DNA of 48,551 bases, taken from contig CAJJBY010000012.1 in assembly GCA_905182545.1 (NCBI GenBank), forward strand, positions 1 to 48,551, written 5' to 3'. The translations under genes were made by a program, and so were the position numbers. Each line of letters starts with the position of its first letter. Within the stretch, counting starts at the first letter, position 1. This document shows positions 9,555-48,551 of this stretch, piece after piece. This DNA comes from an uncultured Candidatus Puniceispirillum sp. (lineage in GTDB: Bacteria > Pseudomonadota > Alphaproteobacteria > Puniceispirillales > Puniceispirillaceae). Below the pieces are notes generated by a model, which saw only the letters and a list, made by a program, of their open reading frames with translations, made no database searches and was not told the origin of the DNA.

Positions 9555-9571
9555 ATGCTTTGTCTACCTAT

Positions 9572-10045
9572 CTATTCGGCTGAAACGGCAGGGACAATGA
9601 TCTTGCCACCAGCTTTTTCGACTACTTCAACAGCGGCCTTAGACGCACCCGCTGCATGAATCTCGACCTTTTTCGCGGTCAATTCACCTTTGGCAAGGAT
9701 CCGGACACCGTCACGCACCTTTGAGATGACGCCAGCGCCAACCAATGCTGCCGCATCAACCGGCTTGCTGGCATCCAGCTTGCCTGAATCGATTGCCGCT
9801 TGTAGGCGGCCAAGGTTAACCTCGACATAATTCTTGCGGAAAATATTATTGAAACCGCGCTTTGGCAAACGGCGATGGATCGGCATCTGGCCGCCCTCAA
9901 ACCCGTTGATTGACACGCCTGAGCGCGCCTTCTGACCCTTATGGCCACTGCCTGATGTCTTTCCGGTTCCCGAACCAATACCACGGCCAACCCGCTTGGC
10001 GTTCTTCGTTGCGCCCGGATTGTCTCTGACTTCGTTCAATTTCAT
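9572..10045 (-). CDS. rplO: 50S ribosomal protein L15
   Basis: L15 stabilises 23S rRNA late in 50S assembly. The 157-aa product starts [20 protein letters not shown] and has the long Gly/Arg/Lys-rich extension [19 protein letters not shown], then [18 protein letters not shown], the L15 signature. The globular C-terminal domain ends in [12 protein letters not shown]. It lies between rpmD and secY. Confidence 0.97.
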
Positions 10046-10097
10046 TTGTCACTCCTGCCAGCGCGCCACTTAAAGGCGCTCTGCTGATAAAAACCGT

Positions 10098-10286
10098 TTA
10101 CTGTTGTTCAACCCGAACCAGATGCTTGACCTTATTAATCATACCGCGGACCGATGCTGTATCTTCCAGCTCGCGGGTACGGCCAATTTTGTTCAGCCCA
10201 AGCCCAATCAGGGTCAAGCGCTGGTCAGCCTTACGGCCAATTGCGCTTCTTGTCTGGGTGACAATCACTGTTGCTTTGGCAGCCAT
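10098..10286 (-). CDS. rpmD: 50S ribosomal protein L30
   Basis: L30 is a small late-binding 50S protein that alphaproteobacteria keep in the spc operon. The 62-aa product reads [20 protein letters not shown], then [18 protein letters not shown] and ends [17 protein letters not shown], all typical. The 52-bp gap to rplO is larger than most in this operon. Confidence 0.96.
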
Positions 10287-10300
10287 CTTACTCTCTCCTG

Positions 10301-10873
10301 TTAGGATGCAGCGGCGTCGTTGCCGGTCGCAGCCTTATCTTCACGTTTCACAAGAATGTCGCCAACGCGCTTGCCGCGCTTTTGCGCCACAGCCCGTGGT
10401 GCCTGAATATGGTTCAATGCTGAAAAAGTGGCCTTGATCATATTATGTGGGTTCGAGCTGCCAATTGACTTTGCAACGATATCCTGAATGCCAAGCACCT
10501 CAAAAACAGCGCGCATTGGGCCACCGGCGATGATGCCAGTACCGGCAGGTGCCGCACGAAGCAGAACCTTACCTGCGCCGTAATTGCCCTTATTGTCATG
10601 GTGCAATGTGCGACCGTCACGAAGGGGAATACGAACCATATTGCGCTTAGCGCCTTCCGTTGCCTTGCGGATCGCTTCAGGAACCTCACGGGCCTTGCCT
10701 GTGCCGAAGCCAGCGCGGCCTTTGCCATCACCAACCACAACCAAAGCGGCGAAACCAAACCGGCGACCACCCTTGACAACTTTAGCCACACGGTTAATGC
10801 CAACCAACTTTTCGAGCAATTCGGGCTCTTCGCGCTCCTGGCTACGGTCCCGTCTGTCGTTATTGCGTGCCAT
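10301..10873 (-). CDS. rpsE: 30S ribosomal protein S5
   Basis: S5 helps maintain decoding accuracy and lies at the mRNA entry channel. The 190-aa product has the double-stranded-RNA-binding-type N domain ([19 protein letters not shown]), [21 protein letters not shown], and the C domain with [21 protein letters not shown] and [10 protein letters not shown]. The ATG at 10873 is chosen over a TTG one codon upstream. The residues around the spectinomycin-binding loop look wild type. Confidence 0.97.
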
Positions 10874-10885
10874 CAATCGTGCTCC

Positions 10886-11248
10886 CTAGAATTTCAAACC
10901 GGCTTCGCGCGCGGCTTCAGCCAACGCCTTGACCCGGCCGTGGAAAATATAACCGCCGCGGTCGAAAACCACTGCGTCAATGCCTTTTGCCTTGGCGCGC
11001 TCGGCGACCAATTTGCCAACCACGCTTGCTGCGGCGACATCGGCTGTCTTGCTTAATGCTGATTTGAAATCGGCGTCAAGTGTAGAAGCTGCTGCCAAAG
11101 TGATACCGGCAGTATCATCGATAACCTGAGCATAAATATGCTTTGATGAACGATGCACAGACAAACGAAGCTGTCCTTTGCAGGTCTGCCGTAGCTTGGA
11201 ACGGGTCCGCTGACGGCGGCGTTCAAATAATTCTTTAGATGTAAACAT
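10886..11248 (-). CDS. rplR: 50S ribosomal protein L18
   Basis: L18 binds 5S rRNA and attaches it to the 50S subunit. The 120-aa product has the basic N terminus [37 protein letters not shown], and the C-terminal [26 protein letters not shown] signature. It lies 9 bp after rplF and 12 bp before rpsE. Confidence 0.97.
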
Positions 11249-11257
11249 GACCTGTCC

Positions 11258-11791
11258 CTACTTCTTTTTGCCTTCTTTGCGGACAATATGCTCTTCAGCA
11301 TATTTCACACCCTTGCCCTTATATGGCTCAGGTGGACGCTTTGACCGGATTTCAGATGCAAACTGACCAAGCAATTGCTTGTCAGCGCCAGTGATTGTGA
11401 TTGAAGTGTTATTTTCAACAACCGCAGTCAAACCGGCAGGAACATCCATCTCAACAGGGTGGCTAAACCCAAGGCTAAGCACAATTTTATTGCCCTGCAT
11501 TGCCGCACGATAACCAACACCGTTGATTTCCAATTTGCGGGTAAAGCCACTGCCAACACCGACAACCATATTGCTGATTGATGCACGCATTGTACCCCAT
11601 AGCGATAGCGCAAGCTTAGTTTTGCGCTTTGGCTTTAAGGTGGCAATATTATCGGCAATGCTTAATTCGACCTCACTGTGGAGTGGGGCGCTCAGCTGAC
11701 CGTTTTTTCCTTTGACGACCACCATACCATCCTGCTGTGACAAGGTCACATCAGCCGGGATAACAATCGCACTATTTCCGATACGAGACAT
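11258..11791 (-). CDS. rplF: 50S ribosomal protein L6
   Basis: L6 lies at the base of the stalk near the factor-binding site. The 177-aa product has two similar L6 folds: SRIGNSAIVIPADV at the start, then NMVVGVGSGFTRKLEINGVGY, and in the C-terminal half RSKRPPEPYKGKGVKYAEE, the L6 signature. The tail is basic (RKEGKKK). Length matches the family. Confidence 0.98.
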   Translation of the reverse strand: MSRIGNSAIVIPADVTLSQQDGMVVVKGKNGQLSAPLHSEVELSIADNIATLKPKRKTKLALSLWGTMRASISNMVVGVGSGFTRKLEINGVGYRAAMQGNKIVLSLGFSHPVEMDVPAGLTAVVENNTSITITGADKQLLGQFASEIRSKRPPEPYKGKGVKYAEEHIVRKEGKKK

Positions 11792-11803
11792 GCGAGCAGC
11801 TCC

Positions 11804-12202
11804 TTAAAATACGTGGCAGAGGACTTCGCCGCCAACTTTGGCTGTGCGGGCCTCATTGTCAGACAGGACACCACGCGGAGTAGACAAGATGGCAATGCCA
11901 AGCCCGTTGTACACCCGCGGCAAGTCGCGAAGACCAAAATAAACGCGGCGACCCGGACGGGATACGCGCTTGATTTCAGAAATCACTGGCTGACCTTCAT
12001 GATATTTCAGCTCGATCTTCAGCTCTTTCAGGCCTGGGCGAATATCAACGCTTGAATAATTGCGGATATAGCCTTCGCGTTTAAGAACTTCTAGAACATT
12101 GCTGCGGAACCGTGATGCCGGGCTAGAGACGACGCTTTTACGCGCGTTCTGACCGTTACGGATGCGTGTTAGCATATCGCCAAGAGGATCACTCATAGAC
12201 AT
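11804..12202 (-). CDS. rpsH: 30S ribosomal protein S8
   Basis: S8 is a primary 16S rRNA-binding protein and, in E. coli, represses the spc operon by binding its own mRNA near rplE. The 132-aa product starts [20 protein letters not shown] and ends with [20 protein letters not shown] and GGEVLCHVF, the family signature. Whether autoregulation is kept here is not visible. Confidence 0.98.
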
Positions 12203-12218
12203 TTGCTTTATCTCCTCT

Positions 12219-12524
12219 TTACCAGCTTGACTTCACAACGCCCGGAACCTGACCCATTGAGGCCAAATCGCGAAGGGCGATACGAGACATTCTAAGTTTA
12301 CGGTCATAACCACGTGGACGGCCTGAAACCTCACACCGGTTACGAATACGAATTTTTGCACTATCGCGTGGCTCATCAGCCAGCTTGAGAACGGCCTGGA
12401 AACGATCTTCCATTGACACGTTCTTGTCAGCGATGATTGCCTTTAATGCAGCGCGACGAGCACCACGGGCGGCAACGATACGCTTGCGCTTGTTATTTTT
12501 TTCAACGGCGCTTTTCTTAGCCAT
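12219..12524 (-). CDS. rpsN: 30S ribosomal protein S14, zinc-independent long form
   Basis: S14 binds the 30S head. The 101-aa product is the long form without the four zinc cysteines: only one Cys is seen, in [16 protein letters not shown]. It ends [15 protein letters not shown], which is strongly conserved. It lies 17 bp after rplE and 16 bp before rpsH. Confidence 0.98.
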
Positions 12525-12541
12525 GATTAACCCCTTTGCTC

Positions 12542-13087
12542 TTACGCTTTAACGAACGGGAACTGAAAGCCTACGAGTAACTCGCGGGCCTCATCATCCG
12601 TTGTTGCTGATGTCACCACAATGATATCCATTCCGCGGATTTCATCTACCTGGTCATAATCGACCTCAGGGAAAATGATCTGTTCTTTAATACCCATGGC
12701 ATAGTTGCCACGACCATCAAAGCTCTTCCCATTCAAACCGCGGAAGTCACGAACCCTAGGAAGGGCAATATTCACCAGCCGGTCGAGAAATTCATACATA
12801 TGCTCGCGGCGCAATGTGACCTTACAGCCGATTGGCATCCCTTCGCGCAATTTGAAAGCCGCATTGGCCTTCTTTGAACGAGTGATAACCGGGTTCTGGC
12901 CAGTAATTGCAGCAAGCTCACGGGCAGCATGTTCGACTTTTTTCGAATCACGAACCGCTTCACCAACACCCATATTAATGACAATCTTCTCGAGCTTTGG
13001 CGCCTGCATAGCATTGGCATAACCAAATTTCTCAATCAGAGCCGGGCGAACTGCCGTCAGATAATGTTCTTCTAAACGCGTCTTCAT
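12542..13087 (-). CDS. rplE: 50S ribosomal protein L5
   Basis: L5 binds 5S rRNA and contacts the P-site tRNA. The 181-aa product has [40 protein letters not shown] and the 5S-contact loop [16 protein letters not shown], ending [14 protein letters not shown]. Length and start agree with relatives. It lies 29 bp after rplX. Confidence 0.98.
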
Positions 13088-13116
13088 CTCAGCTTTCTCA
13101 CTCCTTACCCTTGGGC

Positions 13117-13434
13117 TTACGCCAGGGCTTTTCCGGAACGGCGAGCGATCCGGACTTTTTTACCATCTTTTTCCTCATAACCGACACGTGTTGCTGTGCC
13201 GCTGTCAGGATCGATATGTGCAACATTCGAAATATGCAAAGGCGCTTCCATCGAAATAATGCCGCCTGTGTCTGTCTGGGTTGCGCGGCGATGGCGCTTG
13301 ACCATATTAATCCCCTGAACCCGAACACGAGATTCGGCGCGAAGCACTTCAAGAACTTCACCCTTTTTACCTTTGTCACGACCGGTAACCACAATCACCT
13401 GATCGCCTTTTTTGATTTTAAACTTCTCAGCCAT
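13117..13434 (-). CDS. rplX: 50S ribosomal protein L24
   Basis: L24 initiates 50S assembly. The 105-aa product contains a KOW motif ([20 protein letters not shown], residues 8-27), then [10 protein letters not shown] and EAPLHISNV. Its start codon overlaps the last base of the rplN stop (TAATG), which suggests coupled translation. Confidence 0.97.
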
Positions 13435-13802
13435 TACAGCACCTCCGGTGCCAGAGAAATGATCTTCATGAACTTGCGGCCACGCAACTCGCGGGTCACA
13501 GGGCCAAAAATACGTGTGCCAATCGGCTCGTCCTGTTTATTCAACAAAACCGCAGCATTTCGGTCAAAACGGATGGCGCTGCCATCTGCCCGACGAATTT
13601 CTTTGGCTGTCCGCACGATAACCGCACGATGAACATCACCTTTTTTCACCTTGCCGCGGGGAATGGCTTCCTTGACCGAAACAACGATCACATCACCAAC
13701 GCCAGCGACTTTACGGCCTGAACCGCCAAGCACCTTGATACACTGGACACGTCGCGCACCAGAATTATCGGCAACTTCAAGATTTGACTGCATTTGAATC
13801 AT
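13434..13802 (-). CDS. rplN: 50S ribosomal protein L14
   Basis: L14 lies at the intersubunit face next to L19. The 122-aa product starts [20 protein letters not shown] and has [20 protein letters not shown] and [17 protein letters not shown], all signatures of the family. It lies 11 bp after rpsQ. Confidence 0.98.
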
Positions 13803-13813
13803 GTCAGTCTCTC

Positions 13814-14059
13814 CTAGTTTTTCGCTGCATCGTCATAGACCACTTCATGGGTCTTTGACTTAGAAACAGGTGGGCATTCACGAATGCGAACAGAATCACC
13901 TTCTTTGAAGCGGTTTTCAGCGTCATGGGCTGCAAACTTCTTTGATTTGGTAATAATCTTTTTATACACCGGATGCATGATGCGACGCTCGACGCGGACG
14001 GTTACCGTCTTATCGCCTTTATCGCTCACAACAGTGCCTTGCATGGTACGCTTTGGCAT
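13814..14059 (-). CDS. rpsQ: 30S ribosomal protein S17
   Basis: S17 is an early-binding 16S rRNA protein with an OB fold. The 81-aa product has LQG-like [38 protein letters not shown] and [17 protein letters not shown]. It lies between rpmC and rplN with 12- and 11-bp gaps. Confidence 0.97.
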
Positions 14060-14071
14060 AACTAGACTTCC

Positions 14072-14287
14072 CTATTTTGCTGCATTTTCTGCACTGGCTT
14101 TTTGGCCAAGTACAGTTTTGATGCGGGCGATCTCACGGCGCACAATCTTGGCCCGTGTTGGATTTTCGACCTGACCACCAGCGGCCTGAAAACGCAGGTT
14201 GAACTGCTCTTTTTTCAGATCGATAAGCTGTGTCTTCAACTCATCTGGGGTCTTTGCGCGAAGCGCTTCAGCTTTAACAATTGCCAT
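14072..14287 (-). CDS. rpmC: 50S ribosomal protein L29
   Basis: L29 lies at the tunnel exit beside L23 and contributes to the docking site for nascent-chain factors. The 71-aa two-helix product has [35 protein letters not shown] and [14 protein letters not shown]. Start and length are typical. Confidence 0.97.
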
Positions 14288-14301
14288 CGGTGCTTCCCTT
14301 T

Positions 14302-14721
14302 TTAATCAGTATCGCCAAGGCGACGAACAATCCGCGTGTCCAGCGGTAACTTTGCGGCGGCAAGGGTAAATGCCTCTTTCGCCAAATTCCAAGGAACACC
14401 ATCAATCTCAAACATGATGCGGCCAGGCTTTACGCGGGCTACCCAGAATTCTGGTGTGCCTTTACCTTTACCCATCCGAACCTCCGCAGGCTTGCTTGAT
14501 ACAGGCACATCAGGGAAAATCCGGATCCAGACACGACCGGCACGACGCAGGTGACGTGTAATGGCACGACGAGCAGCTTCGATTTGACGTGCTGTTACAC
14601 GCTCAGGTGTTACGGCTTTTAGACCATAAGAACCGAAATTCAGCTGCGTTCCACCCTTTGCAAGACCGTGAATCCGGCCTTTATGGGCTTTGCGAAATTT
14701 TGTACGCTTTGGCGAAAGCAT
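14302..14721 (-). CDS. rplP: 50S ribosomal protein L16
   Basis: L16 contacts the A-site tRNA elbow and organises the peptidyl transferase region. The 139-aa product starts [16 protein letters not shown] and has [40 protein letters not shown] and KLPLDTRIV. The second of two ATGs in a row is chosen as in relatives. Confidence 0.97.
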
Positions 14722-14739
14722 CAACTTATCTCCTAAGAC

Positions 14740-15435
14740 TTAACCGTTGCCGCGTGGCGCTGAGCCAGACTGCTGCTCGGCCATCCGCTTATCCTGGGCC
14801 ATTGGGTCATGAGCCATGACCTCGCCCTTAAATACCCAAACCTTGATGCCGCAGGCACCGTAGGTTGTGAATGCTGTTGCTTCACCGTAATCAACTTCGG
14901 CGCGCAATGTATGGAGTGGAACGCGGCCTTCGCGATACCATTCAGTACGGGCGATCTCGGCACCGCCAAGACGACCAGCGCAGTTGATTCGTACACCCAA
15001 AGCACCAAGACGCATTGCAGATTGAACTGCACGCTTCATCGCGCGGCGAAAACCAACCCGGCGCTCAAGCTGCTGAGCAATATTCTCGGCAACCAACTTG
15101 GCATCAATCTCAGGCTTTCGAACCTCAACGATGTTCAGGCTAACCTCGCCACCAATCCGGCTTGACAGATCAAGACGCAACTTTTCGATGTCCTGACCCT
15201 TTTTACCGATGATCAGACCCGGACGGCCAGCATGAATGGTCACGCGGGCGCGGCCAGCTGGACGCTCGATCACAACGCGGCTGATTGCAGCCTGCTTGAG
15301 GCGATCCATCAAATATGCGCGAAGCTTAATGTCTTCATGAAGCAACTGCCCATAGTTACGGCCAGCATACCAGCGCGAATCCCATGTCCGGTTAATACCG
15401 ACACGCAGGCCGATTGGCTTGACTTTCTGACCCAT
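14740..15435 (-). CDS. rpsC: 30S ribosomal protein S3
   Basis: S3 lines the mRNA entry pore and helps mRNA helicase activity. The 231-aa product starts [20 protein letters not shown] and carries a KH domain ([19 protein letters not shown]) followed by the S3 C domain ([30 protein letters not shown]-like [12 protein letters not shown]). The final 20 residues are a disordered Gln/Gly-rich tail. The ATG at 15435 lies 1 bp after the rplV stop. Confidence 0.98.
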
Positions 15436-15436
15436 C

Positions 15437-15814
15437 CTACTGCTCTCCTCTTTCACCGACGATGATCGTCAGGTGTGAAAATGGCTTTAAAATCCGTGCG
15501 CCGCGGCCTTTGGCTCGTGCGCGGAAACGCTTCATAACAAGACCCTTGCCAACATGCGCTTCTTTCACAAACAACCTGTCAACATCCAATGAATGGTTAT
15601 TTTCCGCATTGGCAATAGCTGATTGCAGCGCTTTTTTCACATCGCCAGCGATACGGCGGCGTGAGAATGACAAAGCGGCAATCGCTTTATTCACATCCAT
15701 GCCCCGGATCATTGTCGCAACAAGGTTCAGCTTTTGTGGGCTGACGCGCAAATTGCGAACGACAGATTTTGCTTCACTGTCAGCCAAGCTGCGTGGATTT
15801 GATTGCTTACCCAT
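15437..15814 (-). CDS. rplV: 50S ribosomal protein L22
   Basis: L22 lines the narrow part of the peptide exit tunnel with its long beta hairpin. The 125-aa product has [40 protein letters not shown], the hairpin region [20 protein letters not shown] and [11 protein letters not shown]. No deletion of the kind seen in macrolide-resistant hairpins is evident. Confidence 0.98.
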
Positions 15815-15823
15815 AACCTACCC

Positions 15824-16099
15824 CTAACGCTTTGATTTCTTGTCGGCGGCATGGCCGTAATAAGTGCGGGTTGGCGAAAATTCACCAAGCTTGTGTCCAA
15901 CCATTTCTTCCGAAACAGACACAGGGATAAATTTATTGCCATTATGCACACCAAATGTAAGCCCAACAAACTGCGGCATAATCGTTGAACGACGTGACCA
16001 TGTTTTGATCACTTCATTCCGACCAGACTCGCGAACCTTGTCCGCTTTCTTCAACAGATGCCCATCAACAAACGGGCCTTTCCAAACTGAACGTGCCAT
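15824..16099 (-). CDS. rpsS: 30S ribosomal protein S19
   Basis: S19 binds 16S rRNA in the head with S13. The 91-aa product starts [20 protein letters not shown] and has [40 protein letters not shown] and [20 protein letters not shown]. Length and order (rplB-rpsS-rplV) are standard. Confidence 0.98.
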
Positions 16100-16114
16100 G
16101 ATTAAGAATGACCC

Positions 16115-16939
16115 TTATGGCTTGCGACGCCGCACAATCAGGCGGTCAGTCTTCTTGTTAGAACGAGTACGCTTGCCCTTGGTTGGCTTACCCCAAGGTG
16201 TTACTGGATGACGGCCACCTGACGTACGACCCTCACCACCACCATGTGGGTGATCAACAGGGTTCATAACCACGCCGCGTACATGCGGGCGACGGCCAAG
16301 CCAGCGATTACGGCCAGCCTTACCAATTTTGATGTTCTGCTGGTCAGGGTTTGATACAGCACCGATAGATGCCATACATTCTGACCGCACCAAACGAACT
16401 TCACCAGATGTCAGGCGCAAAATCGCATAACCGCGATCACGACCAACAAGCTGGATATAGGTTCCAGCTGAACGCGCCAGCTGGCCACCCTTGCCCGGCT
16501 TTAACTCAACATTATGGATCAATGTTCCAACAGGAATATTGGCCAATGGCAGGGCGTTGCCCGGCTTGATGTCAGACCCGATACCGGCTCGAACCTTGTC
16601 ACCAATCGATAAACGCTGTGGTGCCAGAATATAGCTTTGTTCGCCATCTTCATAAGTGATAAGTGCAATGAATGCTGTCCTGTTCGGATCATATTCAATC
16701 CGCTCAACAGTCGCAAGCATACCAGTTTTGGTGCGCTTGAAATCGATTAGGCGATACCGGCGCTTATGGCCGCCACCCTTTTGCCAAGCAGTCACGTGAC
16801 CCGAATTGTTACGGCCACCTGTCTTTGACAGACCCTCAGTCAGCTTTTTAACCGGACCACCCTTATAAAGGGCAGATTTGTCAACAAGGACAAGGTTCCG
16901 CTGGCTTGGGGTTGTTGGATTAAATTTCTTTAACGCCAT
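16115..16939 (-). CDS. rplB: 50S ribosomal protein L2
   Basis: L2 is needed for subunit joining and peptidyl transferase activity. The 274-aa product has [20 protein letters not shown], the SH3-like core, [19 protein letters not shown], and the conserved [20 protein letters not shown] loop with the essential histidine. Start and length match the family. Confidence 0.98.
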
Positions 16940-16943
16940 CTGA

Positions 16944-17270
16944 TTAAACTCCCATCAGGTCAATATTCTGACCCTCAGCCAATGTGACCATTGCCTTTTT
17001 CATGTCAGAGCGACGACCTGGCCGACCTTTAAAGGTTTTGGCCTTGCCCTTTTGGACAATCGTATTCACCGCAGTGACCTTGACATTAAACAGCATTTCA
17101 ACTGCTGCCTTGATTTGTGGCTTGGTTGCGGTGATCGCAACCGCAAAGGTTACCTGACCATGCTCATTCGCTATCGTCGCCTTTTCGGTGATGATTGGAC
17201 GAAGGATCGTGTCATAGGCAGTCGCCTTTGTGACCACAGTTGTTACAGGCTTGCGCGCACGAACACTCAT
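16944..17270 (-). CDS. rplW: 50S ribosomal protein L23
   Basis: L23 at the tunnel exit is the docking site for trigger factor and SRP. The 108-aa product has [60 protein letters not shown] and [20 protein letters not shown]. The N-terminal stretch ([14 protein letters not shown]) is a few residues longer than usual. Its start overlaps the rplD end by 4 bp. Confidence 0.97.
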
Positions 17271-17896
17271 TTCAGGCGCTCCTCAAGATGGGCCGCAGCA
17301 TCCTTGGACAGAACCAGAACATCACGACGCAGGATATCATACACATTAATGCCCTGCTGTGGCAGCACATCAACCAACGGAATGTTACGCGCAGCCTTTA
17401 CAAAGCCTGCATCCAACTCGGCGCCACCAATGATCAGTGCATTCTCAGCACCAAGCTTTACCAGCTGCTCGCGAAGCTTTGCCGTCTTACCAGCAGATTT
17501 GCCAGTTGACGCCAAGCTATCGAGCACCAGAAATTTGCCTTCAGCGACCTTTTTAGACAAAGCCGAACGCAGACCAAGCTGGCGAACCTTCTTTGGCAGA
17601 GCATGACCATGATCACGAACAACCGGACCATGAACAACACCACCACCACGGAACTGAACAACAGCGGCAGAACCGTGACGTGCGCGGCCAGTGCCTTTTT
17701 GTTTGAACATTTTGGCTGTAGTAATTGCCACTTCAGCGCGCGACTTCACCTTGTGTGTGCCGGCGCGGCGTTTGGCAAGCTGCCACTTCACCACACGCGC
17801 AACAATATCGGCGCGCGGTGCGACCCCAAAGACTGCATCGGCAAGCGTAATGTCGCCAGCGGCCTTGTTGTCGATTGTTTTCACATCAATCTTCAT
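17267..17896 (-). CDS. rplD: 50S ribosomal protein L4
   Basis: L4 lines the exit tunnel; in E. coli it also represses the S10 operon. The 209-aa product has the extended-loop region [20 protein letters not shown] and [20 protein letters not shown]-like sequence, then a Rossmann-like C domain. It lies 5 bp after rplC. No clear L4-responsive leader hairpin could be assigned before rpsJ. Confidence 0.97.
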
Positions 17897-17901
17897 GACC
17901 C

Positions 17902-18708
17902 TTATTCCTTCTCGGCTTCGGCATCAACAGCGCCAGGTGCCTCAGCAACGGTCTCGTCAGATGGAGCTGCATCAACAGCAGAATCTTCAACCGCAACATC
18001 CGCAGCCATTGCTTCTTCGCTAGCAGGGGCCAGATCAGACAACAAACCCGCAGGGAATGGCGCATCATCAGGACGTGCCACCTTGATGGCATCACTGATC
18101 AAAACCCAACCATTCTTTGAACCCGGAACCGCACCGCAAAGTAGGACGACGCCCTCGTCATTATCAACAGCAACAACTTCGATATTTTGCGTGGTGTTAC
18201 GCGCGGCACCCATATGGCCAGCCATCTTCTTGCCTTTAAACACCTTGCCCGGATCCTGACACTGGCCAGTTGAACCGTGCGAGCGATGCGAAACCGACAC
18301 ACCATGTGATGCACGAAGACCGGCAAAATTGTGACGCTTCATCGCACCGGCAAAACCTTTACCCTTCGTTGTGCCAACAACATCAACTTTCTGACCAGCA
18401 ACAAAGTGCGATGGTACCAAAGTCGAGCCGACTTCGAGAACCGCATCATCACTAACCCGAAATTCGGCTAGCTTTGACTTCGGCAATACATTGGCTTTCG
18501 CAAAATGACCACGCATCGGCTTTGATACGTTCTTTGCCTTGGCAACGCCCGCGCCAAGCTGAACAGCTGTATAACCATCCCTGTCTTTGCTACGAACTGC
18601 TACAACCTGGACATCGTCGAGTTTTAGAACGGTGACCGGCACATGGTGGCCAGCATCGTTAAACACGCGTGTCATTCCCATTTTACGGGCGATAATGCCG
18701 CTACGCAT
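17902..18708 (-). CDS. rplC: 50S ribosomal protein L3 with long Ala/Glu-rich C-terminal tail
   Basis: L3 initiates 50S assembly and reaches toward the peptidyl transferase centre. The 268-aa product starts [18 protein letters not shown] and has the L3 signature region ([42 protein letters not shown]). About 45 residues after the normal core end form a tail rich in Ala, Glu, Asp and Ser ([20 protein letters not shown] and on to EAEKE). E. coli L3 is 209 aa. The start is at the third ATG of the frame, matching relatives. Lies between rpsJ (16 bp) and rplD (5 bp). Confidence 0.96.
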
Positions 18709-19099: not shown

Positions 19100-20290
19100 T
19101 TATTTAATAACCGTTGCGACGACACCGGCACCAACGGTGCGGCCACCTTCGCGGATCGCAAAGCGAAGACCTTCATCCATCGCGATTGGCGCGATCAATG
19201 TCACAGTCATGGCAATGTTATCACCAGGCATAACCATCTCGGTACCTTCCGGCAATTCTACAGATCCGGTCACATCAGTTGTGCGGAAATAGAATTGTGG
19301 ACGATAGTTCGAGAAAAACGGTGTATGACGACCGCCCTCATCCTTGGTCAGAACATAGGCCTCACATTTGAATTCGGTATGTGGCGCGATTGAACCTGGC
19401 TTACACAAAACCTGACCACGCTCAACATCTTCACGCTTGGTACCACGAAGAAGAACACCAACATTATCGCCAGCTTCGCCCTGATCCAAAAGCTTGCGGA
19501 ACATCTCAACACCGGTACAAGTTGTCTTGACTGTGTCTTTCAGACCAACAATCTCGATCTCTTCACCAACATTCACAATGCCGCGCTCGATACGGCCAGT
19601 CACAACAGTACCACGACCTGAAATTGAGAACACATCCTCAATCGGCATCAAGAATGGCTGATCCTTTGGACGCTCGGGCTGGGGAATGTAAGTATCAACA
19701 GCTTCCATCAATGCCTTGATCGCGTCACGGCCAATGGTCTCATTGCTATCTTCCAATGCAGCCAAGGCTGAACCACGAACGATCGGAATATCATCGCCAG
19801 GGAAATCATATGATGACAACAGCTCGCGAATTTCCATCTCAACAAGCTCAAGCAACTCTTCATCGTCAACCTGATCAACCTTGTTCATGAATACGCATAA
19901 AGCTGGAACACCAACCTGACGTGCCAACAAGATGTGCTCGCGTGTTTGTGGCATCGGGCCATCAGCTGCTGATACAACCAAAATCGCACCATCCATCTGC
20001 GCCGCACCTGTGATCATGTTCTTCACATAATCGGCGTGACCAGGACAATCCACATGCGCATAGTGACGGTTCGCTGTCTCATATTCAACATGCGCTGTTG
20101 AAATGGTGATTCCGCGGGCGCGCTCTTCAGGCGCCTTGTCAATCTGGTCATATGCTGAATACTCAGCTCCACCAGACTCAGCCAAAATCTTGGTGATCGC
20201 TGCGGTCAGTGAAGTCTTGCCATGGTCAACATGGCCAATTGTGCCAATGTTGCAATGCGGCTTGGAACGGTCAAACTTTTCCTTGGACAT
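19100..20290 (-). CDS. tuf: Elongation factor Tu, copy 1
   Basis: EF-Tu brings aminoacyl-tRNA to the ribosome with GTP. The 396-aa product has the P-loop GHVDHGKT (residues 19-26), DCPGHADY (81-88) and NKVD (136-139), then the two beta-barrel domains. It lies in the usual place after fusA. It is nearly identical to the copy at 39841-41031: I count five base differences, one of which changes a residue (Asp189 here, Glu in the other). Identity stops close to the start codon. Confidence 0.98.
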
Positions 20291-20319: not shown

Positions 20320-22459
20320 TTAGGCCATCTTGGCGCGGACTTCATCCGCAACCGCTTGAGGCACTTGTTCGTAATGGTCAAAAGTCATTGAATACTGGGC
20401 GCGGCCTTGGCTCATTGAGCGCAAAGTATTGATATAGCCAAACATATTGGCAAGCGGCACCATCGCATCTATCGAGCGAGCGTTGCCACGTTGATCCATA
20501 CCGCCAACATTACCGCGGCGGCTGTTCAGATCACCAATAATATCGCCCATATATTCTTCAGGGGTCAGAACTTCGACCTTCATGACTGGCTCGAGCAATT
20601 TCGGGCTTGCCTTGTTCATGGCTTCGCGGAAAGCAGCACGACCTGCAATCTCAAAGGCCAGAACTGAAGAGTCAACGTCGTGGCTTGCGCCATCAACAAG
20701 CTCGGCTTCAAAGTCAATCACTGGGAAACCGGCAATTGTACCCGACTCTTTCGCCTGATTAATACCTTTCTCGACACCTGGTATGTATTCCTTGGGAACC
20801 GACCCACCAACAACTGAATTGCTAAACTGAAACCACCCTCAGCCAAAGGCGAAAACCGGATTTTAACTCGTGCAAACTGACCTGTACCACCAGATTGCTT
20901 CTTGTGGGTGTAATCAACTTCAACTTCTTTGGTGATGGTCTCCCGATACGCAACCTGCGGCGCACCAATATTGGCTTCAACCTTAAATTCACGCTTGAGA
21001 CGATCAACCAAAATATCGAGGTGCAATTCGCCCATACCACGCATGATGGTCTGACCTGATTCAAAGTCGGTACTAACCTGGAAAGATGGATCTTCGGCAG
21101 CTAGACGCGCTAGGCCTGCACCCATTTTCTCTTGGTCATTCTTTGTCTTTGGCTCAATCGCGATCTCGATGACCGGATCCGGGAAGGTCATTGTCTCAAG
21201 AACAACTGGCTTCAACGGATCACACAAAGTGTTACCTGTAGTGCTGTCCTTCATGCCAGCAAGCGCGACAATGTCACCGGCAAAGGCTTCTTCGATTTCT
21301 TCGCGGTTGTTTGAATGCATCATCATCATCCGGCCAACGCGCTCGCGCTTGCCTTTTGTTGAATTAAGCAGGCTGTCGCCCTTTTCTCAAAATACCTGAA
21401 TAGATACGAACAAAGGTCAATGAACCGACAAATGGGTCATTCATAATCTTGAAAGCAAGGCCAGAGAACGGCTCGGCGTCATTTGCACGGCGCTCGATGT
21501 CACGAGTTTCAGTCGACATCATCCGGTGCAAAGCCGGTGTAGGCAGCGACATCCAACGGACCTGGCAAATAATCAATAACGCCGTTCAACAAAGGCTGAA
21601 CACCCTTGTTCTTAAAGGCCGATCCACACAGAACCGGAACAAACGACATGTTCAATGTGCCTTTACGGATCAAACGCTGGATTGTCTCGACATCAGGCTC
21701 TTCGCCGTCAAGAAACTTTTCCATCACGTCATCGTCCTGCTCGACAATCAACTCGATCAATTCAGCGCGCATCTCAACGGCTTTATCAGCAAGCTCTGGA
21801 CGGATTTCATTGAGACGCCAAGTCGCGCCCAAATCTTCTGAGTCCCAAACCCATTCCTGCATGGTCACAAGATTGATCAGACCGGCAAATTCATTCTCGG
21901 CACCGATTGGCAAATGCACTGGCAAAGGCTGTGCGCCAGTACGGTCTTTGATCATGTTGACGCAGTTAAAGAAGTCAGCGCCGATCTTGTCCATCTTATT
22001 GACGAAAACGATCCGCGGCACTTTATAACGGTCAGCCTGACGCCAAACTGTTTCTGTTTGTGGCTCTACACCGGCATTCGCATCAAGAACGCAAACCGCG
22101 CCATCAAGAACCGCCAATGAACGCTCAACCTCAATCGTGAAGTCAACGTGGCCTGGTGTGTCGATGATGTTAAAGCGGAATTTTGCAGCTTCAGGATCAT
22201 CACCATGCTCGCCTGATGGATCGGTGCCGTTTTCAGTGCGGTACCAGAAACAGGTTGTCGCAGCAGAGGTGATGGTAATTCCACGCTCTTGCTCTTGCTC
22301 CATCCAATCCATGGTCGCATTGCCGTCATGCACTTCACCGATCTTGTGTGACCGGCCTGTGTAATAAAGAATCCGCTCGGTCGCAGTGGTTTTACCGGCA
22401 TCAATATGCGCCATAATACCAAAATTGCGATAACGATCTAAATTATATTCGCGTGCCAT
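20320..22459 (-). CDS. fusA: Elongation factor G (three frame breaks)
   Basis: EF-G drives translocation on the ribosome. The reading starts [20 protein letters not shown] and holds the P-loop [18 protein letters not shown] and [10 protein letters not shown], then domains II-V with [17 protein letters not shown] and the C-terminal [20 protein letters not shown]. The frame breaks near 21520; at 21380-21390 (net one extra base in a TTTT/AAAA/GGG stretch, where [14 protein letters not shown] is expected); and near 20850, where three T on the coding strand stand for four (EGGFQFSNSV). All parts are highly conserved, so sequencing error is much likelier than loss of an essential gene. Confidence 0.93.
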
Positions 22460-23641: not shown

Positions 23642-27833
<4,192 letters not shown>

Positions 27834-27928: not shown

Positions 27929-32108
<4,180 letters not shown>

Positions 32109-32217
32109 CAGTGATCCCTCGTCAAAATTCCAGCTGCCGGTGACCAAATTTGATAGCCATAGGCGCTTTTTAAATGGGTTTCGGACCGGTTATAAAACCG
32201 CCGATTATTAAACGACC

Positions 32218-39840: not shown

Positions 39841-41031
39841 TTATTTAATAACCGTTGCGACGACACCGGCACCAACGGTGCGGCCACCTTCGCGGATCGC
39901 AAAGCGAAGACCTTCATCCATCGCGATTGGCGCGATCAATGTCACAGTCATGGCAATGTTATCACCAGGCATAACCATCTCGGTACCTTCCGGCAATTCT
40001 ACAGATCCGGTCACATCAGTTGTGCGGAAATAGAATTGTGGACGATAGTTCGAGAAAAACGGTGTATGACGACCGCCCTCATCCTTGGTCAGAACATAGG
40101 CCTCACATTTGAATTCGGTATGTGGCGCGATTGAACCTGGCTTACACAAAACCTGACCACGCTCAACATCTTCACGCTTGGTACCACGAAGAAGAACACC
40201 AACATTATCGCCAGCTTCGCCCTGATCCAAAAGCTTGCGGAACATCTCAACACCGGTACAAGTTGTCTTGACTGTGTCTTTCAGACCAACAATCTCGATC
40301 TCTTCACCAACATTCACAATGCCGCGCTCGATACGGCCAGTCACAACGGTACCACGACCTGAAATTGAGAACACATCCTCAATCGGCATCAAGAATGGCT
40401 GATCCTTTGGACGCTCGGGCTGGGGAATGTAAGTATCAACAGCTTCCATCAATGCCTTGATCGCTTCACGGCCAATGGTCTCATTGCTATCTTCCAATGC
40501 AGCCAAGGCTGAACCACGAACGATTGGAATATCATCGCCAGGGAAATCATATGATGACAACAGCTCACGAATTTCCATCTCAACAAGCTCAAGCAACTCT
40601 TCATCGTCAACCTGATCAACCTTGTTCATGAATACGCATAAAGCTGGAACACCAACCTGACGTGCCAACAAGATGTGCTCGCGTGTTTGTGGCATCGGGC
40701 CATCAGCTGCTGATACAACCAAAATCGCACCATCCATCTGCGCCGCACCTGTGATCATGTTCTTCACATAATCGGCGTGACCCGGACAATCCACATGCGC
40801 ATAGTGACGGTTCGCTGTCTCATATTCAACATGCGCTGTTGAAATGGTGATTCCGCGGGCGCGCTCTTCAGGCGCCTTGTCAATCTGGTCATATGCTGAA
40901 TACTCAGCTCCACCAGACTCAGCCAAAATCTTGGTGATCGCTGCGGTCAGTGAAGTCTTGCCATGGTCAACATGGCCAATTGTGCCAATGTTGCAATGCG
41001 GCTTGGAACGGTCAAACTTTTCCTTGGACAT
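39841..41031 (-). CDS. tuf: Elongation factor Tu, copy 2
   Basis: This is the second EF-Tu gene, 396 aa, with P-loop [16 protein letters not shown] and NKVD. It differs from copy 1 at about five bases, giving Glu189 instead of Asp189. Identity covers the whole coding region and ends almost at the start codon and just past the stop, while flanking DNA differs. That pattern suggests gene conversion between the copies. It is intact, as is copy 1. Confidence 0.98.
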
Positions 41032-43907: not shown

Positions 43908-43983
43908 GCTGGCGTGGCTCAATTGGTAGAGCACCCGATTTGTAATCGGGCGGTTGGGAGTTCGAGTCTCTCCGCCAGCACCA
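43908..43983 (+). tRNA. tRNA-Thr (anticodon TGT), integration target
   Basis: A 76-nt tRNA with acceptor GCTGGCG / CGCCAGC, discriminator A, encoded CCA, anticodon loop TTTGTAA and T arm GAGTTCGAGTC. Its last 17 bases plus two more (43967-43985) recur inverted at 45287-45305, and a phage-type integrase fragment follows, so it is the likely attachment site of a mobile element. Confidence 0.97.
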
Positions 43984-43985
43984 TT
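43967..43985 (+). mobile_element. Attachment core (attL-like) in the tRNA-Thr 3' end
   Basis: TCTCTCCGCCAGCACCATT covers the 3' half of the T arm, acceptor, CCA and two more bases. The same 19 bases occur on the opposite strand at 45287-45305. Downstream at 44051-44070 lie two GGTAGACC boxes, fitting an element-side integrase arm. Confidence 0.7.
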
Positions 43986-44050
43986 TCCCCCATTGCATCA
44001 TGTGTTAACACATTGAAATTGAAGCGTTGTTGTTCGTTTTGATTGATGTG

Positions 44051-44070
44051 GGTAGACCATATGGTAGACC
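44051..44070 (+). repeat. Paired GGTAGACC boxes, possible integrase arm sites
   Basis: GGTAGACC occurs at 44051-44058 and 44063-44070, a 12-bp step. The same pair with the same step occurs inverted at 45397-45416. They overlap the integrase start codon, so an integrase or excisionase bound here could also repress int. Confidence 0.65.
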
Positions 44071-44384
44071 ATTTTAGTACTTATCTTTACCAGAAGCGTG
44101 GCTTCTTCTACTTCTCTAGGCGTGTTCCAAAGGAAGTGCAGCGTTGCCATTCTAAGCAGCGCATCGTGCTTGCGTTGAACACCAGAAGCCGTGCCAAGGC
44201 TCTCAAATATTCTCAAGTCATATGTCAGCGATTAGATGAGCGATGGCTGCCTATGAGACTGGATGCGCTGGGGTTAGGCAATGTGATGGCATTGACGATG
44301 CGCTTGCAGATTTATCAAAACAACGATAAATGTTTGCCAAAAGCTAGAGCACTTCAACAAGCACAGTGCCTCCATTGGCCGTAA
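44061..44384 (+). pseudogene. int: Tyrosine-type site-specific integrase, N-terminal fragment
   Basis: The start MVDHFSTYLYQKRGFFYFSR-RVPKEVQ is typical of the N-terminal arm-binding region of large phage-type integrases from alphaproteobacteria, followed by ALNTRSRAKALKYSQVICQR. Homology-like sequence fades at about 44340, near the end of the opposite-strand methyltransferase, and no core-binding or catalytic domain (Arg...His-x-x-Arg...Tyr) is present. Full-length relatives are roughly 400 residues or more, so this is a stump of about 95 residues plus unrelated codons. Confidence 0.8.
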
Positions 44385-45030
44385 ACCCAGCGTACCGGTA
44401 TTTTACCTTATTCGATTCACAAAACTCTTGCCATGCTTTCCACTCATGCTGTCGCCAAGCAGGATAATTAAAGTATTCATCAAAAAGCACGTAAGAACCT
44501 GCGGTTAACTTATCGCCAACTGTTTCTAGAATTGTTTTAGTTGAACTGTACAAATCGCAATCAATGTGGCAAAAGCTAATATTATCAAGCATTTGCTCTC
44601 GAAATCTCGGTAGCGTATTCTCAAAAAGTCCCTTAATAAGAACTACATTATTTAACACCTTTGGTAACCGAGTTTGCTTGAAGGTACCCGAAACCGCATT
44701 ATGCCCCGCCCAGTCTTCAGGCAAACCCTCGAAAGTGTCAAAGCCGTAAACTTTTGTGCCATTAGGGGTAAAAGATGCAATCGTGTTTATTGATCGGCCT
44801 GTTGCAACGCCAAACTCCAAGTAATCCCCTTGCTGACGACAGTTCTTAATCGCGTATTCAATAATCTCTTTCTGGCTCTCAAAAATAACTGCATCATTCA
44901 TGTTCTTTTGAACGTAATCAACAGCTTCATTTCTTGCCCGAATTTGCAATTCATAAAGAATGTTTTGTGAAAAGTATTTGTAATAAAGCCGTCTAACAAA
45001 GGCTTCCCAAATGTTTCGCTTTTTTGCCAT
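44344..45030 (-). CDS. TylF/MycF-like class I SAM methyltransferase
   Basis: TylF-family enzymes O-methylate sugars of macrolides; relatives in surface-polysaccharide loci likely modify glycans. The 228-aa product has the SAM motif YLEFGVATGRS (residues 70-80), GFDTFEGLPEDWAG (97-110), the metal-binding acidic stretch FCHIDCDLYSST (153-164) and LFDEYFNYPAW (182-192). It is intact and lower in GC than the host genes. It abuts the integrase stump tail to tail. No glycan genes lie nearby, so its substrate is unknown; it looks like cargo or flanking island DNA. Confidence 0.88.
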   Translation of the reverse strand: MAKKRNIWEAFVRRLYYKYFSQNILYELQIRARNEAVDYVQKNMNDAVIFESQKEIIEYAIKNCRQQGDYLEFGVATGRSINTIASFTPNGTKVYGFDTFEGLPEDWAGHNAVSGTFKQTRLPKVLNNVVLIKGLFENTLPRFREQMLDNISFCHIDCDLYSSTKTILETVGDKLTAGSYVLFDEYFNYPAWRQHEWKAWQEFCESNKVKYRYAGFTANGGTVLVEVL

Positions 45031-45286
45031 TATCTACCTGCGGTGAATCAGTCGAGAAAGGGATTGCTATTCAATGAAGCTGTGATTTTAAGGTCAACGA
45101 TGAAATAAACCCTCGCAACCTACACTGTTTTGAAATGTGGTTATTTAAAATAGCTTCTTTTCAACATCCGTCCAATTGATTATCGACTTTGTAGCTTAAA
45201 GTAACAGTTTTACAGGTTCCATACTCCAACAAGTCACACCCCAGCACTTCCAAAAGTACAGTGAAATCAAAATTTTCAGGAGGGGG

Positions 45287-45305
45287 AATGGTGCTGGCGG
45301 AGAGA
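45287..45305 (-). mobile_element. Inverted attachment core (attR-like)
   Basis: The minus strand reads TCTCTCCGCCAGCACCATT, identical over 19 bases to the tRNA-Thr 3' end, and then CCCCC as the tRNA flank reads TCCCC. Upstream on that strand lie two GGTAGACC boxes (45416-45397). This is the layout P arm, core, host side, as in attR, but in opposite orientation to the attL-like site. Confidence 0.7.
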
Positions 45306-45396
45306 GGTAGTCTCTCTGTATAAGCACCAACTCATCACGTAATTGAAGCTATCTGTAGAATCTCACACGTAACTGTACTCGTCAATGCACTGTTTT

Positions 45397-45416
45397 GGTC
45401 TACCCAGTGGTCTACC
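45397..45416 (-). repeat. Paired GGTAGACC boxes (minus), possible integrase arm sites
   Basis: GGTCTACC at 45397-45404 and 45409-45416 is the reverse complement of the pair near int, with the same 12-bp step and similar flanks (continuing CAATCA-like sequence on both). This supports one integrase acting on both ends. Confidence 0.65.
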
Positions 45417-45669
45417 CAAACTCAATCACCTTATTCCCTGCACAGAACTATCCTCAATCGCTCTACATTGACTCAGGACAGGCTTAAGCTGTGTTCGATA
45501 TACGGATGTATGTTTGATGGGGGTATGTGCCTACACAAGGCTTGTAGGGAGGTTAATTGCTTATCGTTACTGAGTATAGGGAGAGTGAGGTATGTAGGTG
45601 GTTAATAACTACCTCTATAAATACACTTAACTGTATCACTTAAGGTGCATTAGCAAAGTTTATGTAGTC

Positions 45670-45745
45670 AATATATCACCCCGGGGGCATGGGCCATAGG
45701 GGGTGTGTAGGTATTATATTGTTGGGCTCTGCAACAGATGGGGTG
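45670..45745. repeat. 76-bp direct repeat, copy 1
   Basis: Matches 46131-46206 with about 8 mismatches; a central stretch of 34 bases is identical. On the minus strand it contains AATATAATAC then TACACACCCCCTATGG, and CACCCC pairs with GGGGTG as an outer stem. The two copies flank the small phage-like gene. Confidence 0.9.
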
Positions 45746-46027: not shown

Positions 46028-46130
46028 GTTAACTCCAATACAAGCTTCCAATTAATTTGTTTAGGCTTAACAAGCATGCATGCTACATGCCAAAGCTTGT
46101 GATGGTTTGATTCTCATTTAATTGTTAGGA

Positions 46131-46206
46131 AATATCTCACCCCGGGGGCATGGGCCATAGGGGGTGTGTACGTATTATATTCATGGGGTCTGCAACAGGT
46201 GGGGGT
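46131..46206. repeat. 76-bp direct repeat, copy 2
   Basis: Second copy, 461 bp from the first and about 100 bp upstream of the small minus-strand gene. On the minus strand it reads TAATACGTACACACCCCCTA, which recalls single-subunit phage RNA polymerase promoters and also has a sigma70-like TATAAT. A promoter role is plausible but unproven. Confidence 0.85.
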
Positions 46207-46481: not shown

Positions 46482-47826
46482 TGAACGAGCATCTGACAGA
46501 CATAGTTAATAGGCTAGCGTCTCAGATAACTGAACAAGAGGGGCGTGACCGAAAGCGCATGGAGCTCAAGCCAATTTTCTGCACGGGATGAACACCTTAT
46601 TATTCAGCTGTGGAAAGGCACTCAAATACATGAGGGCTTTGAAGGCGGTATTAATAAAAGGGCTGGTTGGTATTCTGAAAACTCAAGGTATAGAGACCCC
46701 AACTTAACCTACAAGCAGACTGTGGCCGCTTATGACGGCTTGATTAAGCTTGGCTTGGTGCAAGAAACTCAAAGGGGCTATTTCAATCGTGAAACCCTTG
46801 AAGGTAAAATCACACGCTTTGCCGCCAATGATGAACTGCTCTCAGTCTTTTCAGACATAAAAGATGACCCTTTCAAAGCTATTCAGCCCGACCTTTCTTC
46901 TGAGTCAATAATTCTAAGGGATAAGATAGACGGTAAAAAGCAGCAGATAGATTACCTAGACACTCCCGGCGTCAACGAGATGCGGGACAATCTCCTACTA
47001 ATCAACAAATGCCTTAAAGCACATTACCCAGACATAAGAATAAGAGATGATGAGTGGCTTCCTTAGCAAGAGCGGATTATGGCTGACCCAAAGAAGCAGC
47101 CCATAGACCTTACACGCAGAACGTTAGTTCGAATATTTTCAGAGGGTCGTTTTGAAGAGGTGGTAGGTTTTATCGGGGCTGGTGGGAAAATGTACCAAGT
47201 GAGTATCGTAAATATATTACTATCGATGGCAAGCGGACCAATGAGTATGACTACTCCCAGCTAAACCCGCACATGGTTTACATCCTAAGGGAAAAGGAAT
47301 TAGGCAGTGAGGATGCCTATGGCAGGGTATTTGATGGTGAGCATCGTGACCTTGTAAAAGAAGCGTTCAATGCGATGGTCCAATCCGCAACACCTTTGTT
47401 GAAAGAGCCAGAGACATTGATTTGAGTGAGGTGGACTTTGACTGGCCTTTTCTCAGGCAGGCCATACTGGATGCCACAAACCTATTCAAGATATGTTCTT
47501 TAAGGGACATGGTAACTACCTTCAATATATCGATAGCGTTATGGCTGAGGACATCATGCTTAAATTTGTTAAGTCTGAGTTTGTACCCGTATTACCAGTG
47601 CATGACAGTTTCATCGTTCAGCTATGGCCATGGTGAGTTGGGGGAGCTAGAAGAAGACATGCGAAGAGCATTTCATGGTCACTTTAAAAAGGACATCAAA
47701 GTCAAAGAGGAGATAGGTGTGATGCTTCCGTCTTCATTTGACGGCAAAGATTGGGATGAACTATCTTTTGAGGAGCAAGTGCATGGTCCACCTGAATACA
47801 GTCAGTGGGAAGATAGAAACTCCTAA
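46481..47826 (+). pseudogene. Polymerase-like mobile-element protein, broken (HDSF motif)
   Basis: Pieces in several frames join into one protein of about 440 aa: MNEHLTDIVNRLASQITEQE; ARDEHLIIQLWKG...EMRDNLLLINKCLKAHY; DLTRRTLVRIFSEGRFEE; GGRFYRGWWENVPSEYRKYI with EYDYSQLNPHMVYILRE; HKPIQDMFFKGHGNYLQYID with FVPVLPVHDSFIV; and LEEDMRRAFHGHFKKDIKV. The pattern GGRFY-x-GWW, E-x-D(Y/F)-x-x-x-(H/N)P and PVHDSF(I)V is that of an uncharacterised plasmid/phage protein family; HDSF resembles motif C of family A DNA polymerases and T7-type RNA polymerases. An in-frame TAG (47064-47066) and four or more frame changes (near 46560, 47160, 47400, 47475, 47630) break it. Confidence 0.7.
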
Positions 47827-48015
47827 ATGGTAAAAATAGTTATCATGTCCATATTCGCTATTGCACTCGTAATTTTCGCAATGCGTTTCCTGCCAACATT
47901 ACGTTTTCAAATTCAACGCATCTTGCAAAACCCATTCGTACGAGCAATCCTGTTCAGAGGATTGTGGCGGTTGGTGCAGTTTTTGACATTAAGAAGGTCG
48001 GCAAATGTTCAATAA
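47827..48015 (+). CDS. Small membrane protein (62 aa)
   Basis: The ATG directly follows the TAA of the polymerase-like gene. The product has one N-terminal hydrophobic helix (IVIMSIFAIALVIFAMRF) and then a basic amphipathic region (RFQIQRILQNPFVRAILFRG, LTLRRSANVQ). It overlaps the DUF445 gene by 11 bp, so co-translation is likely. No family is recognised. Confidence 0.5.
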   Translation: MVKIVIMSIFAIALVIFAMRFLPTLRFQIQRILQNPFVRAILFRGLWRLVQFLTLRRSANVQ

Positions 48016-48551
48016 AAGCCTGACAACAAATATAGTTTCTCTTGCAATTATAGCCGTCAGTTACCTTTCACCAAAATACAATGAGATAATATACCTGACT
48101 GGTCTGTTCGCACTCTCCGGTGGAATTACAAACTGGCTAGCCATTCACATGCTATTTGAGAAAATACCATTTTTTTATGGGTCAGGGGTAATTCCAAGCA
48201 GATTTGAAGAATTTAAATTGGGGATAAAGCACCTTGTAATGACAGAATTTTTCACTCCGCAAAATATTAACGTTTTTTTTGGAGCAACAAACTGAGGTCT
48301 TTTCAGCAGATATTAACAACGTGATTGATTTTGACCGTGTGTTTGATGGATTAGTTGAAGCCATAGAAGGTTCATCTATGGGGAGTATGTTAGCAATGCT
48401 GGGTGGTAGAAAAGCACTGGAACCCCTAAAGGAACCTATCACCCTGAAACTTCAAGAAATCATTTGGGAAATGAAAGAGTCAAAAACTGGTGATAAAAAT
48501 TTGGCTACATCGTTATTATCTCAGGTGGAGCAAATAGTTGACCAGCGACTT
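48005..48551 (+). CDS. DUF445-family membrane protein, partial at window end (one frameshift)
   Basis: DUF445 (E. coli YjiN-like) proteins are membrane-anchored and of unknown function. The start MFNKSLTTNIVSLAIIAVSY is followed by the family signature LFALSGGITNWLAIHMLFEK and VIPSRFEEFKLGIKHLVMTE. An eight-T run at 48273-48280 breaks the frame; afterwards FSADINNVIDFDRVFDGLVE and LEPLKEPITLKLQEIIWEMK continue the protein to the window end. The homopolymer makes sequencing error the likely cause. The family is usually chromosomal, so its place beside a mobile polymerase-like gene is notable. Confidence 0.8.

Follow-up and report, generated by a model that had tools for sequence, protein, structure and literature searches.

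The mobile elements described here share with lambda-type tRNA-integrating islands, ICEs and prophages a tyrosine integrase beside attL at the 3' end of a tRNA gene, arm-type boxes on both sides of the core, and a direct attR at the far end. Under lambda-type rules, a site with the P' arm after its core and a site with the P arm ahead of its core form an attL/attR pair. In the yeast 2-micron plasmid, with its Flp/FRT system, the recombinase gene occupies one of two halves, and the inverted repeats that separate these halves contain the recombination sites. The locus presented below carries attL- and attR-like sites that are inverted to each other, and comparison with its relatives places it in a family of integrated elements with a third att site.

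The window analysed here is the whole of a 48,551-base contig (C12) from a genome of 13 contigs. A tRNA-Thr(TGT) gene located by ARAGORN at 43908-43983 (plus strand) is the target gene, and its 3' end forms the att core. The earlier note had pointed out that the 19 bases at 43967-43985 recur on the minus strand at 45287-45305; this repeat is exact, and it extends to an inverted match of 24 nt (43967-43990 and 45282-45305) at 96% identity, with one mismatch (23/24). The match scores 21, compared with 10 for the best of five shuffles of the sequence downstream at the window locus and 16 for the best shuffled score over all loci in that control run. The left copy (43967-43990, plus strand) is the core of site A, the attL, and is followed by a P' arm at 43991-44070 that holds twin GGTAGACC boxes at 44051-44058 and 44063-44070. 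The right copy (45282-45305, minus strand) is the core of site B, inverted relative to A, and its P arm at 45306-45418 (minus strand) holds twin GGTAGACC boxes at 45416-45409 and 45404-45397. The claim of twin boxes at a 12-bp step beside both copies was borne out (44051-44070, and 45416-45397 on the minus strand): they lie 3' of the left core and 5' of the right one, and the proposed arm order, core then P' on the left and P then core on the right with one of the two flipped, is right. Site B of the window retains its core and P arm and lacks the P' arm of A. Inside the P arm, a promoter-like TTGACG at 45385-45380 and GATTCT at 45362-45357 (minus strand) are aimed at the B core. Between the two sites lie an integrase stump (44043-44384, plus strand), with a DUF6538 domain at 44082-44258 and without the catalytic part, and a TylF-like methyltransferase gene (44344-45030, minus strand) in the position and direction of the gene that converges on the integrase gene (int) in relatives. 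Past site B the cargo includes a polymerase-like gene of the phrog_4756 family in three broken pieces (46529-47823, plus strand) and a DUF445 gene (48005-48551, plus strand) whose frame is broken near 48295 and which is cut by the contig end. A GC-rich 79-nt direct repeat (90%) lies beyond the P arm of B at 45665-45743 and 46126-46204, and related stretches occur in contigs C2, C10 and C13. A direct attR, site C, was not found up to the contig end and would lie beyond it; the contig ends within a 638-bp stretch (47914-48551) that is 98.6% identical to one in C2, where it has the opposite orientation relative to int.

What the window carries from 43908 to the contig end is a relic, the decayed copy of an element from a three-site family that integrates at tRNA genes. 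The sole domain match of its integrase stump is the N-terminal DUF6538, so the catalytic residues of tyrosine recombinases are missing from this copy; the conserved R, K, HxxR, H/W and Y positions are present in ten aligned integrases of relatives. A search for the catalytic domain PF00589 gave no match in the window contig and five in other contigs of the genome, with two each in C2 and C7 and one in C10. The junction at 44340 looks like the loss of roughly 0.85 kb of int, as judged from its length in relatives, beside the gene that normally converges on it. Because its integrase is truncated, the window copy cannot flip by itself, and since the integrases in C2 and C10 are also broken, a flip in this genome would need an Int from elsewhere. 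The idea that 43986-45286 is an invertible segment thus fits the element family better than the window, where the copy lacks a catalytic domain.

The assembly itself calls for some care. Split frames at 20718-22459, 23642-27833 and 27929-32147, in genes that we take to be fusA-, rpoC- and rpoB-like, suggest assembly indel errors, so that single frameshifts in the window should be read with caution; the missing part of the integrase is not a frameshift. Two almost identical 396-aa genes, presumably EF-Tu-like, are also present at 19100-20290 and 39841-41031. Broken frames in essential genes, together with the frequency with which contigs stop near B, lend something to the earlier note's simplest reading, an inversion or chimeric join at about 44340. 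This reading of the inverted site as a one-off event or an assembly fault retains hardly any probability and was rejected in view of the recurrence of the layout in relatives, at other tRNA genes of the same genome, in single-contig genomes, in isolates and in a finished replicon. In the home genome, a search with the att region as query followed by contig-contig comparison located two further cases in which an inverted copy lies 3' of a broken integrase, one of 94 nt (97.9%) at tRNA-Leu in C2 and one of 91 nt (100%) at tRNA-Arg in C10, as well as an inverted site near one end of C13, about 6 kb from an oppositely oriented copy of its arm. The inverted sites in the window are not accidental and are likely the worn remains of a widespread mobile-element family.

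A survey of relatives revealed how common the inverted site is. DUF6538 matches are present in 48 of 61 genomes of the family, and 60 of those places were sampled; to these were added 78 of 79 loci from a species-genome scan (L198, in which the match begins inside int, was left out), two of 13 viral-contig loci from an alignment scan (L242 and L243, the other 11 being more distant), and the window with two loci of its own genome. The resulting 143 loci were reduced to 124 distinct loci when 6 and then 13 duplicates were dropped. A locus was credited with site B when the sequence upstream of int had an inverted copy downstream of it that scored 20 or more; shuffled sequence reached at most 16 and 14 in two control runs. 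The layout of tRNA gene, core, P' arm and int, followed by a core and P arm on the opposite strand, is present in 82 of the 124 loci, including a finished replicon, which contradicts a join peculiar to the window. What had been named in advance as counting against the earlier proposal, relatives without the boxes or an unrelated RNA gene as the source of the 45287 sequence, was not borne out. Thirteen further contigs stop less than 400 bp past int and 29 loci show no B; some of these 29 (L060, L071 and L091) have an inverted core without a matching P' arm, others have a broken int, and L164 has too little upstream sequence (38 bases). Measured from the start of the int domain, site B begins after 1.1-2.5 kb in 76 of its 82 loci and after 3.6-7.5 kb in the other six; in 33 of the 82, fewer than 800 bp of fetched sequence follow B.

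The layout occurs in SAR116, roseobacters and Gammaproteobacteria, in single-contig genomes, in isolates and on the finished megaplasmid of Ruegeria sp. TM1040. Carriers of B include Ruegeria conchae, R. faecimaris, R. lacuscaerulensis, Donghicola eburneus, Thioclava sp., Maritalea mobilis, Thalassovita mediterranea, Nitratireductor aquimarinus, Tranquillimonas rosea and gammaproteobacterium HTCC2207. A tRNA gene lies directly upstream of int in 98 of 142 loci, with Leu (26), Arg (20), Gly (17), Thr (15), Phe (14), Asn (3), Ser (2) and SeC (1) as targets. In a later batch of 20 loci, three were duplicates and the other 17, many of them broken or short, stand outside the 124; four of these 17 reach a score of 20 (L270 with 51, L273 with 95, L274 with 22 and L275 with 23). 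A class-level control drawn on DUF6538 contained B in 6 of 20 loci (L143, L144, L145, L146, L148 and L161; L145 and L146 appear to duplicate the contigs of L190 and L233), and in 11 of the 14 control loci without B the sequence continues for 12 kb or more past int. The inverted site is thus a property of a group of integrases and not of all that carry DUF6538. Site B was also tried as the marker of a single integrase clade and rejected: a FastTree of 111 integrases needs 19 changes between 76 rows with B and 25 scored without it (the latter including barely testable ones such as L164, with its 38 bases upstream), which leaves no single clean gain. Among viral contigs, two single-protein scans gave no relative; L242 has B, and L243 has only a 17-nt match, with 33 bases upstream. 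Phage records gave three distant matches to int, and plasmid records gave 29, one of them close. L161, a distant class-level relative, has a 419-aa integrase, a tRNA-Ser and a 140-nt inverted match behind int.

A complete element carries all three sites, namely A (attL), the inverted B behind int, and a direct C (attR). At A the tRNA gene and core are followed by the P' arm and int. Site B, on the minus strand, consists of a P arm and a core, usually followed by 40-80 nt of the P' arm of A, and this P' part often breaks off at a start codon or short of the P' boxes. Site C, a P arm and core in direct orientation, was found in eight relatives and in TM1040, and the int domain and C are 4.2-13.2 kb apart in the eight. 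The P arms of B and C are held in common over 197-394 bp at 96-100% identity in L058, L059, L066, L072, L073, L100, L105 and L223, and over 141 and 150 bp at 93% in L082 and L086. On the TM1040 megaplasmid, where the element lies at tRNA-Phe and its int is annotated with an open frame, the A/B repeat is 85 nt (100%), the B/C repeat is 1,148 bp (100%), and a type I restriction system lies between B and C. Each end of this B/C repeat (L255, 13487-14062 and 23831-24406) contains a whole BRO-family gene, both with the same protein accession. Matching twin boxes in the P and P' arms occur in 27 of 60 elements (the window and 26 others), each at a 12-bp step, and in none of 300 shuffled pairs. Tandem elements at one tRNA gene were seen in L060, L071 and L100; there, the next element's P' arm comes after C, so that the P-arm promoter of C points at the next int.

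A recurrent feature of the P arms bears on what B might do. TTGAC occurs at -130 to -50 from the core in 49 of 66 P arms, compared with 6.8% of shuffled arms, and at -85 to -81 in 37 of those 49; TAAACT- or TAAGCT-like hexamers often lie 16 nt behind TTGACN, and the two together make up a promoter-like motif that is aimed through the core. One reading of B is regulatory and not recombinational, in which a second copy of the P-arm promoter would drive the convergent gene or an antisense transcript of int, and RecA would homogenize the repeats and flip the cargo. The motif indeed points from B at int in those 49 of 66 arms, and the longest frame behind int converges on it in 39 of 49 loci (those with B at 1.3-2.7 kb). 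A promoter copy alone needs neither a core that matches the element's own tRNA gene nor matching twin boxes, and loci with a reversed int exist; we consider a purely regulatory B unlikely.

Several observations are indicative of exchange between the sites. Twelve pairs of related elements were compared, and their P' arms at A and B show concerted evolution: mismatches make up 21 of 1,610 positions (1.3%) inside an element and 141 of 1,465 (9.6%) from one element to another, a contrast that is exaggerated and an upper estimate because well-preserved repeats were chosen (inverted matches of at least 71 nt only, with elements that may recur in several pairs). There is no A-B mismatch in 32 of 55 elements, and in L217 and L224 the arms are identical at 66 of 66 positions inside each element and differ at 2 of 66 between the two. 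Cargo orientation varies as well. Among 25 pairwise cargo rows, nine compare loci that both have B; seven of these are inverted (C12-L025, L025-L184, L068-L087, L059-L073, L083-L099, C12-L083 and L217-L224) and two have the same orientation (L026-L082 and C12-L099), in rows that share loci and are not independent and of which only L059-L073 has both cargo ends fixed by site C. The other 16 rows include a locus without detected B, and the L064-L091 row and four L070-L090 rows are probably host DNA. The polymerase-like gene runs forward in six loci with B (C12, L099, L105, L184, L192 and L223) and reversed in five (L025, L083, L100, L235 and L270); among loci where B was not detected, L200, L215 and L220 carry it forward and L071 reversed, and the five of 20 loci in which it lies upstream of int were not counted. 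All of this evidence for both orientations, of int and of cargo, is drawn between species and not within one population.

We favour, with a probability of roughly 0.55, an interpretation in which these loci form a three-site element family, recombination between A and B inverts the int module, the cargo is flipped through B and C, and the window holds a decayed member. Recombination between A and C, an attL/attR pair in direct orientation, would excise the element. Sites A and B likewise have the arms of an attL/attR pair and are inverted, so that the same excision-type reaction would be expected to invert the int module. Such an inversion would place a complete attP before int, which would then be driven by the P-arm promoter, and would leave an attB-like site at the tRNA gene with the convergent gene next to it. 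The reverse reaction would be of the attP x attB kind, and a preference for int next to the tRNA gene would fit B sites without P' boxes. The cargo could plausibly flip by recombination in the long B/C repeats, catalysed by Int or by RecA in ordinary homologous recombination. Random cargo orientation and alike repeats could both come from homologous recombination alone. Further points against this interpretation are that 29 of 124 loci show no B, that only four of the 17 later loci reach the score, that a reversed int is rare, and that B often has no P' boxes.

Two loci have a reversed int module. In L186 (Candidatus Puniceispirillum sp. AH-135-F23) int is reversed, a full P arm, core and P' arm precede it, and an intact tRNA-Arg gene lies behind int and faces it, followed by a gene of 319 aa; this arrangement has the form expected after such an inversion. 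Its integrase is 85% identical to that of its nearest relative, L063, and the notion that L186 is a simple mirror image of L063 was discarded, since the two have different convergent genes and reshuffled P' arms. L273 is arranged in a similar way, with a tRNA-Gly gene that lies 5.5 kb from a decayed int. These two loci, one of them with a decayed int, stand against 98 in which int lies beside the tRNA gene. Reversed loci might instead be integrations through B, if B were a spare attP through which the circle may integrate in either orientation. L186 and L273 would fit this, yet two such loci against 98, and the common lack of P' boxes in B, make it very improbable.

Under the three-site interpretation, the circle excised through A and C would be expected to contain two inverted attP-like sites, each within a repeat of about 300-1,200 bp, with int in one of the halves between them and the cargo in the other. 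This geometry raises the possibility of amplification like that of the 2-micron plasmid, in which recombination during replication turns the fork and multiplies copies. The repeats are kept alike, and a polymerase-like replication candidate is a frequent cargo gene. On the other side, the circle is reconstructed from integrated elements, many B sites lack P' boxes, and a replication gene is not evident in every complete element, so that we hold amplification to be doubtful. A combined scheme would make these elements a bacterial counterpart of the 2-micron plasmid, with a single integrase that integrates and excises the element, inverts DNA to switch the promoter that drives it, and amplifies the circle through fork reversal; it is likewise speculative and has a low probability.

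Cargo varies among elements. L058 carries between B and C (7795-18241) a Mza-like defence set, with matches to MzaB, MzaC, MzaE and a C5 methyltransferase; L059 carries a primase-like protein (AEP-TOTE) and L073 an AAA_25 ATPase. The polymerase-like gene that recurs as cargo belongs to the phrog_4756 family, and DYS and HDSF are family A polymerase motifs. A structure model of the L220 member (mean pLDDT 78.4) aligns with single-subunit RNA polymerases (best Z 13.2 over 241 residues) and with T7 DNA polymerase (Z 11.9 over 243 residues), although Foldseek alone was weak, with one match below E 0.001. Because some cargos are defence genes, namely the Mza-like set and the type I restriction system, the architecture of these elements bears on how defence genes move. 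Since an inverted third att site is conserved at many tRNA targets and across two or more classes of marine bacteria, the simple attL-int-attR picture misses part of how such elements work. The architecture may also explain why assemblies stop at such islands, and the cultured carriers offer direct test beds for integrase-driven inversion, cargo flipping and copy-number control.

Our literature search gave no recognised description of an integrase gene between inverted att sites, and 'DUF6538' appeared in no paper searched; with the subscription literature mostly outside its reach, the search is weak evidence of novelty. Int-pTN3 of Thermococcus nautili is a tRNA-targeting tyrosine integrase that was demonstrated in vitro to invert DNA lying between inverted tRNA sites (PMC5495485), which shows that an enzyme of this kind can carry out the proposed chemistry. 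Its sites are host tRNA genes and the outcome is chromosomal inversion, whereas here the sites are built into the element (PMC5495485). GIsul2 likewise is an integrase element with three att sites, but its third, attLR, is described without an inverted orientation, and the words 'inverted' and 'inversion' are absent from the accessible text (PMC9376610). SGI1-type tandem arrays also have extra att sites between elements at one target, and the present family includes tandems too; in those arrays the internal attP sites are direct (PMC2297512), whereas B is inverted and lies behind int. A strand-biased circularizing integrative element is characterised by an intA-tfp-intB-srap gene block (PMC10214605). 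The likeness to the 2-micron plasmid would lie in an int gene in one half and inverted repeats that carry the sites, within a circle deduced from integrated elements; the elements described here differ in integrating at bacterial tRNA genes, and their amplification is hypothetical. Compared with lambda-type islands, ICEs and prophages, this family has a third att site that is inverted, lies behind int and carries the P arm of attR, and this third site gives the elements two nested inverted pairs.
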